Shown piece by piece: positions 6,893 through 18,421 of a stretch of DNA of 64,000 bases; positions within the stretch are counted from its first letter, which is position 1, and each line of letters opens with the position of its first letter. Position numbers and translations under genes: made by a program. Source of the stretch: Methylobacter sp. BlB1 (lineage in GTDB: Bacteria; Pseudomonadota; Gammaproteobacteria; Methylococcales; Methylomonadaceae); NCBI RefSeq assembly GCF_015476545.1, contig NZ_JADMKV010000009.1:1-64000 (forward strand), read 5' to 3'. The notes below the pieces were generated by a model. The model saw nothing but the letters and a program-made list of their open reading frames with translations. It had not been told where the DNA came from and did no database searches.

Positions 6893-9667
6893 TTAATTAT
6901 TATTGATTAATTTTAGCCCCGGCGGCAGTGCCTCGCCAAAAATTTGTTTCTCCTCTTTTTCATCGAGCTCGCGTATCTGCTCGACCATGTCTACCCAGGA
7001 TGAAGGTGCCTTGCTCAGCCTCAATTTGTCAATGATTTGCCTGCGCACGGCCTCGTCGATGTCGCGCGCGCGGTCGCCGCTCATGCGCGCGATCAGCGTT
7101 GCGGCAAAACCGGCCTGAGGATTTTTCTTCCAGTCTTCCGACATCATCTGTTTCAGCCATAGGCAGACCGTATCGGCGGGGATCACATTATGGCTGCTGC
7201 CATGAAACGGCATGCGCGCCCCGATACGTCCGACGGCCCACCAGGTCTGGCTGGACTCACCGGCTTTCTGCAAGCGCTTCAGCAGCCATTCGCCCAGTTG
7301 TATCTTCTTGTCGACCGGCAGGCGCTCCAGCACTGCCGCCAGACGCACGATGTCGTCATAGCTGCGCGTCTTCAGCTGTTTGACGACAGCGGGCTGCCTG
7401 GCGGCAGTCGGATCGATATATTTGGCGATATCGTTGAAGATCTGCTCCTGCGCCTCGCTGCTGAGGCCGCCGGCAATACGGCGCCACAGCGTCCACCATT
7501 CGCTCCAGTTCTGGGCTTCGTTGACAAACTGGATGCCCTGCGGATAGGTTTTCCAGAGCTGTTCCACGCGCCAGTCGTCGAGCGGATAACCGAATCCCGG
7601 ACGCAGACAGAAGCCGGTCAGGCTGAGCCAAACCCTTTCATGGTTATCGGAACGGCGGCGATACTTCAGGCCATCCAGCAGCGCCGCGAACATGGCCCGA
7701 AGCAGCGGCGTTTCCCATTCATTGCGCGAGCTGCCCAGCAGCTTTTCCAGATCGGCGCGCAGGTTCTTGACCGCTTTGGGATCGACCTGCTTGGACTTTG
7801 AACCGAAGACCGTCTGTATCTTCTCGACTGCGGCATTAAACTGGGCCGGCAGGACCACATCGGCTTGCAGACCCGCCATGCCTTTCTTTCTGATCTGGAA
7901 TTCCACATCCCAGCGCTGCGTGCTGTCGGCCACGGACACGCACTGAATTTTCAGCGTGCCGATTTCGGTCTGGGTCGCGGCCAGCTGCACGATGACTTCG
8001 CGGTTGCCCTGTTCCTCGTCAGCCCCGAAGGCCACGGCCAGAGGCGGCAGAGAATGGAACTGGTCGGTAATGTCGGTCAGATCGCCGGGCTTGAACGGCG
8101 CATCGCCGGATAGCGAGGCCAAATGGAAGCGCACAGGCTGTCCCAGACGCAAGGCAAATTGCCGGTCTTTCAGGATCGCCTCGTCGCCCTCCTCGCTGCC
8201 GCGCGGCAGGATGCAGACGCCCTGCTGCACGGCTTTGTCGGTATCGACCAGCAGAAAATAACTGCGCGCTGCGCCGCCGCCGATTTTCAGCTTCTTTTCG
8301 CGGCGCGCGATGGCGTAACTGACCGCGCCCAAAGCCACAGACAATTCAGGGTGCTTGTTTTCCAGCAGCACCGGCGGCTTGGAGGCCCATGAATTGATCA
8401 GCTCGATCGTGCGCTGCGTGAGCGGCCGGCTGCGGAACACGCCGCCGTTGAGCAGCAACGCATCGGGCACCACACCCTCGCCTTTCAACGCTTCACGGCA
8501 GGCTTCGCGGTGCAGTTTCAAAAATGCGGCGATATGCTTGCTGACCGCCGGCTCGGCCGCATAAGGCAGCCCGAACTCCACCACGCCGCTGCGCTTTCTG
8601 TCCGGCAATTCATCCAGCCCCGACAGCGGAAAGAATCCGTCCAGGGCGATGGCCCTGACCTCATCGCGGCTCAGTGAAGCGGAACGCGAGCTGCCGATCA
8701 GTTTGGAGCCGCCGCCCAGCAGGGTGACATTGACCCGCTCCGGCGCATCCTCGGCCAGCAGCCGCTCTTTGGCGATACGGCATTGCTCGATCAGCTGCGA
8801 CAGATCGGCCGCCGATAAGCGCCTGTCGTCGCTGACCAGCCGGCTCTCGGCCAAGTGCGCCAGGGCCAGGTCGATATTATCGCCGCCCAGCATCAAATGC
8901 TCGCCGACGCCGATACGGGTCAATTTTGGCTCCTGTTCGCCGTGTTCGACCTTGATCAGCGTCAGGTCGGTCGTGCCGCCGCCGACATCGCAGACCAGCA
9001 GCAGATGGACATCGGCCAGCGCCTGCCCGATTGTGCCGGCGTGGCGTCTCAGCCAGTCGTAGCACACTGCCTGCGGCTCTTCGAGCAGGCGGACATTGGG
9101 GAAGCCTGCGATTCTGGCCGCTTCCAGCGTCAGCGAGCGCGCCGCCTCATCGAATGAGGCCGGCACGGTAATGACGATGTCCTGCTTTTCCAGGGGCGCA
9201 TCGGGAAACCGGTGGCCCCAGACCGTACGGATGTGCGCCAGATAACTGGCGCTGGCATCGATCGGTGATACTTTGTCAATGTCGTCGCTGCTGCCCCAGG
9301 GCAGGATTTCGGCGCTGTGATCGACCGACGGATGCGACAGCCAGCTTTTGGCGCTGGTCACGAACCGGCCTTTGGTCTTGGCGCCCAACAGACGCGCGGC
9401 CTCGCCGATCACGGCCGTCTCGCCAGCAGGCGAAAAAGCGACATCGGCCCCAGACAGCTCGCCGGCGGCCGGATGGTAACGCACGGACGGCAGCAAAGGC
9501 CGCGCCGCAACCTGGCCGGGAGCGACCAGCTGCTCGACCTGAAAAATTTCGATTTCGGAATTGGGTTTATCGGCTCTGGCAAAGGCAACAACGGTATGCG
9601 TTGTGCCCAGGTCGATGCCGACTAAATACTTGGCGGATTGATTTTGCACGGTGTTATATGATTTCAA
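6893..9667 (-). CDS. Hsp70-family protein with long C-terminal extension
   Basis: 924 residues. The N-terminal actin-like ATPase half has the phosphate-1 motif GIDLGTTHTVVAF (about 17-29), phosphate-2 LLVCDVGGGTTDLTLI, and the adenosine-binding region ALLLNGGVFRSRPL. The C-terminal half is far longer than the substrate-binding and lid regions of DnaK and is rich in Trp and Arg (LKYRRRSDNHERVWLSLTGF), so its client binding differs. The apparent start is a TTG at 9667 with GGA upstream; a GTG at 9649 is an alternative with poorer support. It lies downstream of a second Hsp70-like gene and a DUF2760 gene on the same strand; such trios recur in proteobacteria. No DnaJ or GrpE gene is nearby. Confidence 0.9.
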   Translation of the reverse strand: MKSYNTVQNQSAKYLVGIDLGTTHTVVAFARADKPNSEIEIFQVEQLVAPGQVAARPLLPSVRYHPAAGELSGADVAFSPAGETAVIGEAARLLGAKTKGRFVTSAKSWLSHPSVDHSAEILPWGSSDDIDKVSPIDASASYLAHIRTVWGHRFPDAPLEKQDIVITVPASFDEAARSLTLEAARIAGFPNVRLLEEPQAVCYDWLRRHAGTIGQALADVHLLLVCDVGGGTTDLTLIKVEHGEQEPKLTRIGVGEHLMLGGDNIDLALAHLAESRLVSDDRRLSAADLSQLIEQCRIAKERLLAEDAPERVNVTLLGGGSKLIGSSRSASLSRDEVRAIALDGFFPLSGLDELPDRKRSGVVEFGLPYAAEPAVSKHIAAFLKLHREACREALKGEGVVPDALLLNGGVFRSRPLTQRTIELINSWASKPPVLLENKHPELSVALGAVSYAIARREKKLKIGGGAARSYFLLVDTDKAVQQGVCILPRGSEEGDEAILKDRQFALRLGQPVRFHLASLSGDAPFKPGDLTDITDQFHSLPPLAVAFGADEEQGNREVIVQLAATQTEIGTLKIQCVSVADSTQRWDVEFQIRKKGMAGLQADVVLPAQFNAAVEKIQTVFGSKSKQVDPKAVKNLRADLEKLLGSSRNEWETPLLRAMFAALLDGLKYRRRSDNHERVWLSLTGFCLRPGFGYPLDDWRVEQLWKTYPQGIQFVNEAQNWSEWWTLWRRIAGGLSSEAQEQIFNDIAKYIDPTAARQPAVVKQLKTRSYDDIVRLAAVLERLPVDKKIQLGEWLLKRLQKAGESSQTWWAVGRIGARMPFHGSSHNVIPADTVCLWLKQMMSEDWKKNPQAGFAATLIARMSGDRARDIDEAVRRQIIDKLRLSKAPSSWVDMVEQIRELDEKEEKQIFGEALPPGLKLINNN

Positions 9668-9789
9668 GAGTCCAATTGATCCAGGCTATTTAAATTAGCC
9701 TCTTCCATGAGTCATTGGGATGATATTTGCCGGATTCAGCCGATATCATCAGGGCGACCGACCGGCCGCCCTGTTATCAGGGGAACCTG

Positions 9790-11883
9790 CTATTCTTCCC
9801 CGGCCCTGACATCAAACTCGATCTTCCAGCGGCCATTGTCTTTTTGCGATACGGCCTGCAATTCCAGCGTACCGACTTCGGTCACGGCCGCACACAGATG
9901 CACCGGCACGATTTCACCGGGCCGGCGGCCTTCTTCCGGCAGCGTAACCTCGATTTCATCCAGCTCTTCAAGCTCGTCAGGCGCCCAATAATCGAGGCGC
10001 GTGCCTACCTGATCATCGCGGCGCGTGTTGGACGCGAAGAAGCGGAAACGCACCGGCTCGCCGATAACGAGGCCGAATTCATCATGAGGCAGTTCCTCCT
10101 GAGTGCCCTCTTCCATGCCGAACGGCGCGATGCACAAGGCTTCGATTTCCGGTGCCATGCCCGGTACGGCCGGCATGGCGCTTTCGACGCCGACATAATA
10201 AGAGGCCGCCGTGCCGCCTTTGATGCGCACGCCTTTGCCTTTGCGCACGTAACCGTAATAAGCGGCGCCGCGCGCAACGGCCAGATCCAGATCAACGCCT
10301 GGCAATAGTCTGGCTTCAGGCGCCTGCTCGGCCTTCAGCCAGGAATTCAGGACTTCCATCAACCGGTCGGCAAGCACCTGCGCTTTCAGCACGCCGCCAT
10401 TGAACAGCACGGCCGTCGGGTGCAGGAATGACGCGTGCTCGGGCAGATTGACGTCTTTCAAATCCACTGCCGCGCCCTGCTGTTTAGCCAGGAACGCCGC
10501 CAGATGCCGCGTAATGCCCGCATCCTGCGCATAAGGCAGGCCCGCGGTCCTTAAACCGGTACGCGTGCGGGTAATGGGCCGGTCGCTGGCCGCAACCTTG
10601 GGCATGAAGCCTTCGACCAACACGCGGTTGACTTCTTCGCGCGTTAGCTCGGTGCGCAGCGTGCCGCCGATCAGCGACGAACCGCGGCTGGCGACGACGA
10701 GCGGAATCGTATCGATCTCGGCATTATTGAAGATTTTTTCCTTCGCATCGCGGCAGCTGTGCGTCAACGCCTGTATCTGCCAGGGCTCGAGGCGCTTGCC
10801 GTCCTTTTCCAGCTTGGCTTTGACCGTGTAGGCCAGCGCCAGGTCCATGTTGTCGCCGCCGAGCAGGATATGGTCGCCGACCGCAACACGGGTCAGTTCC
10901 AGATTGCCGTCCTGTTCGGTGACAGCGATCAATGACAAGTCGGTCGTACCGCCGCCGATATCGATGACCAGGATGATATCGCCGCAAGTGGCGTAATTAC
11001 GCCAGTCGCCGTGGCTTTTCTCGATCCAGCTGTACAAAGCCGCTTGCGGCTCTTCCAGCAGAATCGCCTGATTCAGGCCCACAGACCGGGCCGCTTCAAC
11101 GGTCAGCTCGCGCGCCGCCGGATCAAACGAGGCCGGCACGGTAATGACCAGATCCTGCTCATCCAGCGGCGCATGGGGATGCAGACTTTCCCAGGCATCG
11201 CGCATGTGTTGCAGATAAGCCGTCGTGGCCTCGAAAGGCGAGACACGCTCGATTTCATCCGGTGCCTCGGCCGGCAGGATGGGTGATTTGCAGTCGACGC
11301 CGGCATGGCACAACCAGCTCTTGGCGCTGGCGACCAGGCGGATCGGCGTTTTGCTGCCCAGGTTACGGGCGATTTCACCGACCAGGTAATCCGGCTTGGG
11401 CGCCCATGGCAGTGAGGTCGACCCCTCAGCTAGTTCGGCTTCGTGCGCCTGATACAGAAACGACGGCAACTGCTCTTTTTCCTCAACCTCACCGGGCGAG
11501 GTCAATTGCGGTATGGCCATGACCTGCTGGTAAAATTCATCATCAATTTTGGTGAGATCGGCATAAGACAGGACGCAATGCGTCGTGCCCAAGTCGATAC
11601 CGACGGAAAACCTTGGCCCGTCGTGAGCGGTCATTTCAGCAATCTCATCACTTTCTTGCGGCTCATCCCTTGCTTGCAGGTTCTCACCCGCTGGTGAAGT
11701 ATCGCTAGCCTGCTGATCTACAGCTTCAACCTTTTCAGTTTCCGGCATTGCGCTCGCTGCAGGCGCTGAATCCGTAGCGGCAGGAGCGGCATTTTCCGGC
11801 TCTGGCGCAGGCGCAGAAGTGTCGGGTTTCTCATCCTTTTTCTTCAACGCATCCGGCTTTATATGACTGAACAGCCCTTTCAT
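9790..11883 (-). CDS. Hsp70-family protein with acidic N-terminal extension
   Basis: 697 residues. Residues 1-90 are a low-complexity Ala/Pro/Glu-rich extension (probably disordered), after which the Hsp70 ATPase begins: GIDLGTTHCVLSYA, then ILVIDIGGGTTDLSLI and AVLFNGGVLKAQVLADRL. The C terminus is short (ends at VRAGEE), giving a near-minimal ATPase plus beta-sandwich. The ATG overlaps the stop of the DUF2760 gene by four bases (ATGA) and has GGAGG upstream, so translation is probably coupled. It is paralogous to the larger Hsp70-like gene at 6893-9667; the two may form a heterotypic pair. Function beyond ATP-driven chaperone-like activity is unknown. Confidence 0.9.
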   Translation of the reverse strand: MKGLFSHIKPDALKKKDEKPDTSAPAPEPENAAPAATDSAPAASAMPETEKVEAVDQQASDTSPAGENLQARDEPQESDEIAEMTAHDGPRFSVGIDLGTTHCVLSYADLTKIDDEFYQQVMAIPQLTSPGEVEEKEQLPSFLYQAHEAELAEGSTSLPWAPKPDYLVGEIARNLGSKTPIRLVASAKSWLCHAGVDCKSPILPAEAPDEIERVSPFEATTAYLQHMRDAWESLHPHAPLDEQDLVITVPASFDPAARELTVEAARSVGLNQAILLEEPQAALYSWIEKSHGDWRNYATCGDIILVIDIGGGTTDLSLIAVTEQDGNLELTRVAVGDHILLGGDNMDLALAYTVKAKLEKDGKRLEPWQIQALTHSCRDAKEKIFNNAEIDTIPLVVASRGSSLIGGTLRTELTREEVNRVLVEGFMPKVAASDRPITRTRTGLRTAGLPYAQDAGITRHLAAFLAKQQGAAVDLKDVNLPEHASFLHPTAVLFNGGVLKAQVLADRLMEVLNSWLKAEQAPEARLLPGVDLDLAVARGAAYYGYVRKGKGVRIKGGTAASYYVGVESAMPAVPGMAPEIEALCIAPFGMEEGTQEELPHDEFGLVIGEPVRFRFFASNTRRDDQVGTRLDYWAPDELEELDEIEVTLPEEGRRPGEIVPVHLCAAVTEVGTLELQAVSQKDNGRWKIEFDVRAGEE

Positions 11884-16280: not shown

Positions 16281-16525
16281 ATTGCCTGTTGTTCAGGATC
16301 GCCCTTTTTCGTAGCCGTTATTAAATTGCTTAATTGAGCAGTAATTCTTGCTGCACTCACTTTAGGCTCATTGTGTTCTACTATTCCTCACAGCCCAGAC
16401 CGCTACCAAAAACTTGCCTATCGCATTTAAAGCATTATCCCAAATGATAATGGTTCGTACCTCACCGCATCTTACTGCGCTATTAATCTTCATATTTATA
16501 TCGACCAAAGCGCCAAATTCAGTTA

Positions 16526-16568
16526 ATAATTTCGCAAATAGCGAAATTATTTTGACAGTAGCGAAATT
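16526..16568 (+). promoter_or_regulatory. Putative operator of the retron operon
   Basis: A perfect 10-bp inverted repeat, ATAATTTCGC (16526-16535) and GCGAAATTAT (16541-16550), with a 5-base spacer ends one base before the -35 box. A third half-site, GCGAAATT, lies at 16561-16568 inside the -35/-10 spacer. Two-fold symmetric sites of this size suit an XRE-family dimer, and such a protein is encoded in the operon, so autorepression is likely (inference). Confidence 0.6.
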
Positions 16569-16580
16569 TTTCTTTATAGT
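16552..16580 (+). promoter_or_regulatory. Sigma70 promoter of the retron operon
   Basis: TTGACA (16552-16557), a 17-base spacer and TATAGT (16575-16580) make a near-consensus promoter; the start point would be near 16587, about 16 bases before the msr-msd candidate. No other comparably good promoter is seen before the reverse transcriptase gene. Confidence 0.8.
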
Positions 16581-16602
16581 TATTTTGCGGTCAGTGATTA
16601 AA

Positions 16603-16813
16603 TCTCGTAGCTGTTAGAGCTTCGGCTCTGTGGAGGCTTGGTTTCGCCTTGTCTCTGACCATTGTCCTGTGAAGCGTTGAGCGTGACGTGTTGTGCTCAT
16701 CTATGATGTACATGGGATAGCCGGTTCCGACGAGAGGTCGGAACCGGGTGATTCAGTAAGGGGGAAAAATACTGCTCAACACTGCTATTTTGTTTGATTA
16801 ATTACGTACGAGA
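16603..16813 (+). ncRNA. Candidate retron msr-msd RNA
   Basis: The region begins with TCTCGTA (16603-16609, candidate a1) and ends with its exact complement TACGAGA (16807-16813, candidate a2). Right after a1 comes GC within TAGC (16608-16611), placing G16610 as the likely branch nucleotide. The msr part shows two short hairpins: AGAGC-TTCG-GCTCT (16615-16629) and GAGGC with GCCTT (about 16633-16650). The msd part is a long stem: GTTGAGC (16676-16682) pairs with GCTCAAC (16774-16780), and the tip is a perfect 11-bp hairpin CCGGTTCCGAC / GTCGGAACCGG (16721-16747). Position, size and a reverse transcriptase downstream fit a retron; ends of the reverse-transcribed DNA are not determinable here. 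Confidence 0.75.
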
Positions 16814-16837
16814 GGCGCAATTTTTGCGCCGTAATTA
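16799..16837 (+). other. Hairpin overlapping the a2 end and leader of the retron mRNA
   Basis: GGCGCAA-TTT-TTGCGCC (16814-16830) is enclosed by TAATTAC (16799-16805) and GTAATTA (16831-16837). The candidate a2 sequence (16807-16813) forms the one-sided bulge between the two stems. No T-run follows, so it is not an ordinary terminator. Confidence 0.6.
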
Positions 16838-16867
16838 GTTAGATTCATAAATTATTTAGGTTCATAT

Positions 16868-17050
16868 ATGAGACAAAATAGAGTAAAAGCCGCAGAGCAG
16901 TGTTCGATTTGTGATGGAAAATTTAAAAAGAAACCCAAATTTGATTTTTGGTTTTTGTTTGGCGTTGTTAGATTTTTTGTAAACTTATTCTCGCTAATCG
17001 ATAAATATTGGCCAAAGATCGAAGATTTCTTTAATGGTGGCCCGGAATAA
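16868..17050 (+). CDS. 60-residue CxxC protein with hydrophobic segment, retron accessory candidate
   Basis: A short gene between the msr-msd candidate and the HTH gene. The ATG at 16868 has the modest site TTTAGG ten bases upstream. Residues 12-15 are CSIC, a single CxxC knuckle, followed by the basic run KFKKKPK and then a strongly hydrophobic, aromatic stretch (about residues 26-45, containing FWFLFGVVRFFVNLFSLI); the tail is acidic (KIEDFFNGGPE). This could be a short membrane-binding or pore-forming peptide held by a metal- or thiol-based element. I do not recognise a family. Its fixed place inside the operon, 44 bases before the HTH gene, suggests a function with the retron, possibly as toxic effector, but that is inference. 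Confidence 0.6.
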   Translation: MRQNRVKAAEQCSICDGKFKKKPKFDFWFLFGVVRFFVNLFSLIDKYWPKIEDFFNGGPE

Positions 17051-17094
17051 ATCTACTCCTCTGTAGTTACCTCTGCCTTATCTTGAGGACTAAA

Positions 17095-17421
17095 ATGTTA
17101 AATCAAGCTCTTAGACTTATACGCACCTATCATGATCTTTCTCAGACAGAGCTTTGCTCTGAGCTTGGTCTTTCCAATTCCTATCTTTCCGAGATTGAGT
17201 CAGGTAAAAAGCAACCCTCACTAGAAATTCTAAAAAAGTATAGTGAACAATTCGATATTCCATTGTCCTCAATACTATTTTTCTCTGAAAATCTAGAAGC
17301 GCCAAAACCTTCTGATAAATTCAGAAAAAATATTGCGGAAAAAATAATAACAATTCTCGAATGGAATGAGAGTCGAATTAATGCTAAAGAAACCAACAAA
17401 AAGAAAGCGAAAATGCCTTAA
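17095..17421 (+). CDS. XRE-family helix-turn-helix protein of the retron
   Basis: 108 residues from the ATG at 17095, preceded by TTGAGGAC; an in-frame TTG at 17083 is less likely. Residues 3-60 form an HTH_3/XRE domain (LSQTELCSELGLSNSYLSEIESGKKQPSLEIL), with helix 3 at SNSYLSEIE. The C-terminal 45 residues are charged and helical and end in a lysine-rich tail. Likely a DNA-binding repressor or antitoxin-like controller of the operon; the symmetric operator at 16526-16550 is the obvious target. Some described retrons carry an HTH protein as their partner, so it may be more than a regulator. Its 3' end overlaps the reverse transcriptase gene by about 40 bases. Confidence 0.85.
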   Translation: MLNQALRLIRTYHDLSQTELCSELGLSNSYLSEIESGKKQPSLEILKKYSEQFDIPLSSILFFSENLEAPKPSDKFRKNIAEKIITILEWNESRINAKETNKKKAKMP

Positions 17422-18421
17422 ACGATACTCAATAGATCAATGTTCTCTTTATAAAGTAAGGTCCGCAAAGAGGCTATCTGAAATTTTAGGAGTAGAAAAA
17501 CAACGATTAGATTCAATTTTGAAAAGTTCAGCCAAATATCGAGAATTTACTATCGAAGAAACAACCAACCCATTTTCTTCAAAGTTCATAAAATCTCGGC
17601 AAGTTCAAGCTCCATCCGATGAATTAAGAAGGATACATGAGCGTATCTTGTATTTACTTGAACCTATTGAATTACCAAACTATGCCCATGCCGCAGTAAA
17701 AGGGCGCTCTTATCGATCAAATGCCGCTACTCATGTTAATTCAGCAAGAATGGCTACATTTGACTTAAAAAATTTTTACGGATCAACGCAACGTTATCTG
17801 GTCTATTCCTTCTTCTTGGATAATCTAAAATGTTCTCCCGATATTGCAGGAAAATTGACAGAGTTAACTACTTTTAGAAATGCCTTACCAACAGGCAGCC
17901 CATTAAGCCCGCTTCTGTCCTTGCATGCAGCCAAGCCAATGCTTGATGAATTATCGAAGCTAGCACAGCTTCATGATCTTATTTTTACATGCTACATCGA
18001 TGATCTAACTTTTTCTGGAAAGAAAATACCACGATCTTTAGAAAGGCGTGTTTCTCGAATAGTTGGTAAATATAATCATCAATTATCAATTCATAAAACA
18101 AAGATATTTGATGAAGATAAGCCCAAACATGTAACAGGGGTCGTAATTAATAAGGGAAAACTAGCTGTGCCTCACTCAAGATTCCTTACAGCAAGAAAGC
18201 TTGAGCTAGCAATAGCTGGTAAGTTTCCAATGCACGGAAATAGCATGTTGAAACTTTGCGAGAAACTGGCAGGACTACTAGGAGAAACTGCTTGTATTGA
18301 TCCGACTTACAAAAAATGGGCGGAAAAGGCCCAAGAAGACCTAAGAAAGGCTCGAACTAAGGATAGCAGTATTGTGGGGCCAGATTCGACTGATTTTGGC
18401 AGCTGTCAGCAAATTGACTAA
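17381..18421 (+). CDS. Retron-type reverse transcriptase
   Basis: 346 residues from the ATG at 17381 (GAGAG upstream at suitable distance; another in-frame ATG at 17366 has its GGA too close). Motifs in order: the retron-specific SNAATH motif (about 113-118), ATFDLKNFYGS with the first catalytic Asp (about 128), LPTGSPLSP (about 169-177), the active site YIDD (about 205-208), and HVTGVVIN (about 250-257), where VTG is the retron motif in the thumb region thought to contact the msr. Length is normal and no inactivating change is seen. It would prime at the 2'-OH of the msr branch G and copy the msd. The start overlaps the HTH gene, so translation is coupled. Codons are AT-rich compared with flanking genes, which fits horizontal acquisition next to a tRNA. 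Confidence 0.93.
   Translation: MLKKPTKRKRKCLKRYSIDQCSLYKVRSAKRLSEILGVEKQRLDSILKSSAKYREFTIEETTNPFSSKFIKSRQVQAPSDELRRIHERILYLLEPIELPNYAHAAVKGRSYRSNAATHVNSARMATFDLKNFYGSTQRYLVYSFFLDNLKCSPDIAGKLTELTTFRNALPTGSPLSPLLSLHAAKPMLDELSKLAQLHDLIFTCYIDDLTFSGKKIPRSLERRVSRIVGKYNHQLSIHKTKIFDEDKPKHVTGVVINKGKLAVPHSRFLTARKLELAIAGKFPMHGNSMLKLCEKLAGLLGETACIDPTYKKWAEKAQEDLRKARTKDSSIVGPDSTDFGSCQQID

Follow-up and report, generated by a model that had tools for sequence, protein, structure and literature searches.

The window analysed here is a 64,000-nt stretch of the Methylobacter sp. BlB1 genome (NZ_JADMKV010000009.1), and all coordinates are positions within it. An earlier note, made from the letters of this window, read the segment at 16603-16813 as a candidate msr-msd element of a retron, a bacterial defence element built around a reverse transcriptase. 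This reading raises the questions of whether a conserved RNA is encoded at the locus, which type of retron it would belong to and what a DNA copy of it might do beside a gene for a very small peptide.

Gene content and genomic setting of the locus

Three genes lie 3' of the RNA on the + strand in the order small ORF, HTH gene and RT gene. The retron reverse transcriptase (17366-18421, at most 351 aa, with a second ATG at 17381) matches the PADLOC family RT_VI at 7.4e-79, the top match among 38 PADLOC families, with the runner-up at 2.3e-47. A check of its sequence found the YxDD, NAxxH and VTG motifs (YIDD at 17993, NAATH at 17720 and VTG at 18131), of which NAxxH and VTG are motifs of retron RTs. 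The closest solved structures, searched with a profile of five RTs, are likewise retron RTs with Ec86 at the top (8.9e-32). The HTH gene (17095-17421) overlaps the RT gene and codes for a 108 aa protein of the XRE/Cro type that matches PADLOC HTH_VI (5.9e-40) and Pfam HTH_3 (1.1e-13). The small ORF (16868-17050) encodes 60 aa with a basic first half and a hydrophobic helix, has no match in Pfam, NCBIfam or PADLOC and represents a candidate toxin.

Type VI retrons are described as an RT accompanied by a DNA-binding protein and a small protein in PMC8541194, which cites Mestre et al. 2020. The present locus combines an RT of the type VI clade, an adjoining HTH_VI protein and a small auxiliary protein with an msr-msd RNA bearing an a1/a2 inverted repeat. 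The RT and HTH families, the small auxiliary protein and the gene order are the same as in the type VI retrons represented by PADLOC RT_VI and HTH_VI, and no gene difference from them is shown at this locus. No Rfam retron family matches the RNA. Judged from sequence, the locus is probably a type VI retron, in an explanation that includes the roles proposed below for msDNA, toxin and repressor.

The whole retron cassette corresponds to a stretch missing from a sister genome (G399). Homology to the matching locus of that genome (L114) stops at 16481 and restarts at 18421, leaving 16482-18420 without a counterpart and 5.3 kb of other genes at the same site. The cassette occupies a variable spot adjoining a tRNA-Thr gene. 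The 5.3 kb replacing it (positions 821-6156 of L114, G399:C1:3346300-3353400) contain ORFs that by eye resemble uracil-DNA glycosylase, thymidylate synthase, an HD-domain protein and deoxycytidylate deaminase-like proteins. Elsewhere in the window, two adjoining long ORFs of 924 and 697 aa on the - strand (6893-11883) both appear Hsp70-like by eye.

An alignment of five RTs, used to scan the species genomes of GTDB, yielded 63 loci, and an HTH_VI search of 296 related genomes yielded 10 genomes. The closest relatives (62-63% RT identity) are methanotrophic gill symbionts of the same family as the window genome. In IMG/VR, searched with a single RT protein, no relatives were confirmed among 11 pattern matches. 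We compared 58 loci with an HTH gene after removal of duplicates (L001, L005, L044, L049, L074, L083, L084, L085 and L093) and of loci with a divergent HTH gene (L007, L008 and L010). From these, 24 were then dropped (promoter rule, missing module or near-identity), leaving 34 loci for the a1/a2 test or 31 for a tip/a2 test allowing several hairpins. By rule, 52 of the 56 loci compared keep this gene order, with a small ORF of 38-80 codons that ends beside the HTH gene; 46 of these 52 ORFs contain a hydrophobic stretch and 50 have a basic first half.

Related layouts were also observed. L007, L008, L010, L089 and L090 form a second group that combines a retron RT with a divergent HTH gene and a longer small ORF, called at about 76-137 aa; they lack the operator found in the main group and perhaps represent another type. 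In L009, L011 and L013, once oriented, a 62-67 aa ORF with a hydrophobic end lies directly 5' of a retron-like RT, and an HTH gene was not detected. In two Aeromonas plasmids (L102 and L103), a gene annotated as Hok/Gef family follows the RT gene of a type VI-like retron at a distance of about 0.5 kb.

Promoter, fold and covariation of the leader RNA

A sigma-70-like promoter (TTGACA - 17 nt - TATAGT) is found on the + strand at 16552-16580. Five sigma-70-like sites were found in this stretch versus 5.8 expected from shuffles, so the promoter call is based on the constant spacing to a palindrome and to a1 in relatives and not on the rarity of the site. The palindrome TTCGCAAATAGCGAA (16531-16545, + strand) matches TTCGCTNNNAGCGAA at 11 of 12 positions and is the likely operator of the HTH protein. 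Palindromes with at least 11/12 matches to TTCGCTNNNAGCGAA lie 5' of the promoter in 39 of the 58 loci, and with at least 10/12 in 47, compared to chance rates of 0.0009 and 0.0164 per shuffled locus, respectively. The usual distance to the -35 box is 5-8 nt. A further half-site, AGCGAA, is located between the -35 and -10 boxes (16560-16565), is also seen in L022, L023 and L025 and could be a second operator. Between 16300 and 18700 neither a + strand terminator-like site nor, in a scan for promoter-like sites, a - strand promoter-like site was found; the absence of the former is in keeping with one transcript. These sequence features mark the RNA as the leader of an operon of small ORF, HTH and RT genes that is preceded by a conserved palindrome.

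Folded by itself, a 221-nt segment differs only modestly from shuffled sequence (z = -2.26, with 4 of 200 shuffles equally stable) and the case for an RNA consequently comes from the relatives. For 14 close loci aligned with MAFFT (alignment A3), 79.6% of cells are paired compared to 68.0% when shuffled (0/500) and 37.6-49.6% when slid, with changes on both sides in 35 of 53 pairs. The compensatory changes that the earlier note had named as a check on its model are thus present, and they extend to 24 aligned loci, where 85.6% of cells are paired versus 64.8% shuffled (0/500) and 38.5-49.5% slid, and to 34 loci for a1/a2. Fitting to the model shaped the 24-locus alignment everywhere but at a1/a2, where 88.5% of cells are paired. 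Both small msr hairpins of the original proposal covary. H1 (16615-16630, + strand), capped by a TTCG loop, has 90.5% of cells paired and both-side changes in 5 of 6 pairs while H2 (16632-16656, + strand) has 100% paired and both-side changes in 3 of 6 pairs (14 loci). The proposed basal stem, GTTGAGC (16676-16682) with GCTCAAC (16774-16780), is present as letters and was rejected as a conserved element, being paired in 43.2% of cells versus 43.8% shuffled, with 355 of 500 shuffles as high. The conserved stem in this region is S3, formed on the + strand by 16663-16671 with 16711-16719 (61.3% paired and 7 of 9 pairs with both-side changes in 14 loci; 68.3% and 8 of 9 in 24 loci).

A covariance model built from the 14 close loci (R1) places the type VI retron ncRNA at 16589-16844 on the + strand with 186.1 bits, a score from a model that includes this sequence. 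The true 5' end precedes 16589 by a few bases, and the element continues past the previously assigned end at 16813 to about 16844. Beyond the loci it was built from, R1 recognises nine type VI loci at E ≤ 0.001, another at 0.0075 and, partially, one at 0.014 (L004, at the expected place). Thirteen loci with other retron-like RTs give no match at E ≤ 0.05. No match at E ≤ 0.05 was obtained in 37 of 48 other type VI-like loci searched, so that for the wider family the evidence comes from hairpin searches. Among the 296 related genomes, R1 matches occur in three, each at a type VI locus, with no solo RNA copies. As R1 missed seven of the ten genomes with HTH_VI, distant solo copies may exist. In the linker at 16748-16790, GGGGGAAAAA and CACTGCTCAACCCG-like words are found; the linker is conserved in sequence in close relatives, is largely unpaired and would be among the earliest parts copied into DNA.

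The complementary ends described earlier, a1 (TCTCGTA, 16603-16609) and a2 (TACGAGA, 16807-16813), are both present on the + strand and covary across 34 nonredundant loci. The own-pair score in an own-versus-permuted test is 473 versus 369.5 (sd 14.0, maximum 429; 0/50,000), and on such permutation tests a chance match was rejected. The search was automatic, using a promoter rule and hairpin energy with no hand picking; the hairpin finder misplaces the 3' hairpin in a few loci (e.g. L028, L029 and L031), which were kept in the counts. The paired sequences vary between loci and include TCTCG/CGAGA, TCACGC/GCGTGA, GCCAC/GTGGC, GTCGTC/GACGAC, TGCACTAG/CTAGTGCA, TGCCT/AGGCA and TTCACC/GGTGAA, among others. 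In loci with a clear match, a1 usually lies 20-29 nt 3' of the -10 box. The branch G proposed to follow a1 (G16610) is a G in 9 of 14 close relatives, an A in 4 and a T in 1, and no fixed G follows a1 in the wider set of loci.

The covarying 3' hairpin (16792-16844, + strand) consists of an outer stem (16792-16805 with 16831-16844), an 8-nt bulge (16806-16813) occupied by a2 and an inner hairpin (16814-16830). Since a1 lies 5' of this hairpin and a2 in its bulge, a1/a2 pairing crosses the outer stem, and the covariation indicates that a1/a2 is a pseudoknot with the 3' hairpin. The hairpin ends at most 12 nt from the start of the small ORF in 33 of 52 loci and at most 20 nt from it in 42. In the window itself 23 nt separate the end of the hairpin from the ATG, and the Shine-Dalgarno sequence is weak. 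Overall, the comparison indicates that the candidate msr-msd is real and encodes an msr-msd-like RNA ahead of a retron RT. The a1/a2 ends, both msr hairpins and the msd tip hairpin are as first read, though the basal stem is not supported and the fold differs in part.

Likeness of the tip loop and a2

The msd tip hairpin (16721-16747, + strand) contains the perfect 11-bp stem noted earlier (16721-16731 with 16737-16747) and a GAGAG loop at 16732-16736. The word ACGAGAGG spans this loop and its edges (16730-16737) and recurs on the same strand at 16808-16815, where it covers a2 and the first two bases of the inner hairpin. Across loci, the tip loop changes together with a2. For 34 loci, the longest words shared by the tip loop (with two flanking bases) and the a2 bulge sum to 162 compared to 113.3 for permuted pairs (sd 6.1; 0/50,000; z = 8.0), and the own match exceeds the median of the other pairings in 22 of the 34. 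Pairing between the a1 region and the tip loop is also stronger than in permuted pairs (448 versus 373.1, sd 13.3; 0/50,000; z = 5.6). A mere shared GNRA-like CGAGA was rejected as the source of the likeness: the 24 loci without CGAGA in a2 still give z = 5.9 for tip and a2 (101 versus 74.2, sd 4.5; 0/50,000), and 304 versus 256.1 for a1 and tip (sd 11.4; 2/50,000).

When several candidate hairpins are allowed for both real and permuted pairs, the tip/a2 sum is 172 versus 120.9 (sd 5.9; 31 loci). At least 5 nt are shared in 26 of these 31 loci, some of them with the best word from a hairpin that is not necessarily the tip (L002, L033, L064 and L087), compared to 25% of non-matching pairs; fewer than 5 nt are shared in L022, L031, L051, L055 and L057. 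Ten held-out phage and plasmid loci, which include two pairs of near relatives (L095/L096 and L102/L103), give 55 versus 43.4 (sd 3.2; 34/50,000), and a weaker 41 versus 33.8 (sd 2.8; 668/50,000) under the stricter rule of using only the best hairpin. The palindrome is present at 10/12 or better in eight of these ten.

Over 26 loci, 155 bases are common to tip and a2, and a1 pairs with 123 of them by Watson-Crick pairing or with 134 when G-U is included. The tip hairpin is also poor in G-U pairs, with 12 of 231 (28 loci) compared to 67 of 502 in 3' hairpins (p = 7.6e-4) using a G-U-neutral picker, and 0 of 81 in the close group. An earlier picker that scored G-U low had given 6 of 230 versus 61 of 467, a contrast weakened by the neutral picker. 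Such scarcity would follow from a need for the hairpin to fold as DNA as well. Of the three relations, the likeness of tip and a2 scores highest (z = 8.0), followed by a1 with a2 (z = 7.5) and a1 with the tip (z = 5.6). Because the tip-a2 relation is the strongest and the shared words exceed a1 pairing, these comparisons favour, without proving, a direct link between tip and a2 over a simple switch of a1; antisense DNA and template recycling would both be links of this kind.

Possible roles of the DNA copy

In the mechanism we propose, the RT would bind the leader RNA, with a1/a2 pairing setting the primer beside the template, and would copy from a2 upstream through the linker and the tip hairpin to give a branched msDNA bearing a DNA hairpin. 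The HTH protein would repress the promoter via the palindrome. The small basic and hydrophobic peptide would act as the toxic effector, restrained by the RT-msDNA complex, the leader or both, and a phage disturbing this complex could release the peptide and cause abortive infection. Because the tip loop contains a copy of a2, a DNA loop made from it would repeat a1 and could pair with a2, so that the DNA copy would be antisense to a2 in the leader of a toxin-like gene. The type VI retron may be a toxin-antitoxin system with an antisense DNA antitoxin. The tip DNA loop would pair with the a2 bulge beside the ribosome-binding region of the toxin gene and block the toxin mRNA or, through RNase H, lead to its cutting, until phage attack on the msDNA or the RT lifts the block. 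This proposal is tentative and, on the whole, unlikely.

Several other explanations were weighed. The RNA might itself be a switch in which a1 pairs with either the tip loop or a2, the tip loop masking the primer until it is released by the RT or by a signal, and the DNA loop having no role. The pairing of the a1 region with the tip loop (448 versus 373.1; 0/50,000) is in line with such a switch. Of the three relations, however, this pairing is the weakest, and the words common to tip and a2 extend beyond what a1 can pair with (123 of 155 bases, or 134 with G-U). A switch also leaves unexplained why G-U pairs are scarce in the tip hairpin, and this reading is fairly unlikely. Recognition of the two loops as one binding motif of a protein, either the RT or the HTH protein, could have made them co-evolve, or cDNA-mediated conversion could maintain their likeness without any function. 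Either process could produce the identity of tip and a2, the strongest signal, but neither predicts complementarity of a1 and a2 at a constant place, and we regard this combined alternative as distinctly unlikely.

The strongest relation would also suit template recycling, in which the 3' end of the cDNA re-anneals to a2 after the tip loop has been copied and synthesis restarts, yielding repeats of about 75-80 nt, much as in the template jumping or repeat addition reported for DRT2 and DRT10. The words that recur identically at the two template ends would meet the need of such re-annealing, but the motif is in a loop, which means that the RT must stop inside a melted hairpin, and the scarcity of G-U suggests that both hairpin arms are copied. 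It also counts against recycling that retrons are not known to make repeat products. Related defence RTs have been reported with repeated products in PMC12039810 and PMC12632851; on balance, recycling at this locus seems very unlikely. Lastly, the RNA could be only a structured mRNA leader, an attenuator of the small ORF operon that is not reverse transcribed. The proximity of the 3' hairpin to the start codon (at most 12 nt in 33 of 52 loci) with no terminator between them fits this explanation, which is made highly improbable by the retron-family RT with its YIDD motif and by an RNA that, like those of retrons, has an msr of two hairpins, a1/a2 and a tip hairpin.

The locus has partial counterparts in known systems. 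Retron-Eco1 (Ec86), a canonical retron, has a related RT and shares a1/a2, msr hairpins and an msd tip hairpin with the present locus. Its a1/a2 is 12 bp long and it is not known to have a 3' hairpin around a2; in this single canonical control, tip loop and a2 have just 3 nt in common. In type I toxin-antitoxin systems such as hok/sok, a small hydrophobic peptide is encoded behind a structured leader that has an antisense RNA partner. The small hydrophobic peptide and structured leader found here are alike, possibly including an antisense partner, which is RNA in type I systems whereas here it would be the msDNA loop. DRT2 and DRT10 are described as similarly pairing an RT with a neighbouring structured RNA and having repeats at both template ends, but they belong to other RT classes, and a retron-type a1/a2 with a tip hairpin is a feature of the present locus.

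The type VI family itself is known. In the portions of the open literature that were searched, neither an RNA structure nor a mechanism was found for type VI; PADLOC uses covariance models of msr-msd elements (PMC9252829). The location of a2 in a bulge, the pseudoknot, the tip loop repeating a2 and the operator are therefore new as far as this literature extends and may be partly known.

The covariation-supported fold gives the exact bases to alter, and the relation between a1, the tip loop and a2 predicts that matched changes in tip loop and a2 restore function. The build of the RNA suggests a new and testable route by which a retron could control its own toxin. If the antisense DNA reading is true, the element would regulate its toxin via a DNA decoy of its own primer. 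An msDNA acting as antisense DNA on the toxin leader would put reverse transcription to a new use in immunity and would make sense of a tiny peptide as the only cargo of such retrons.
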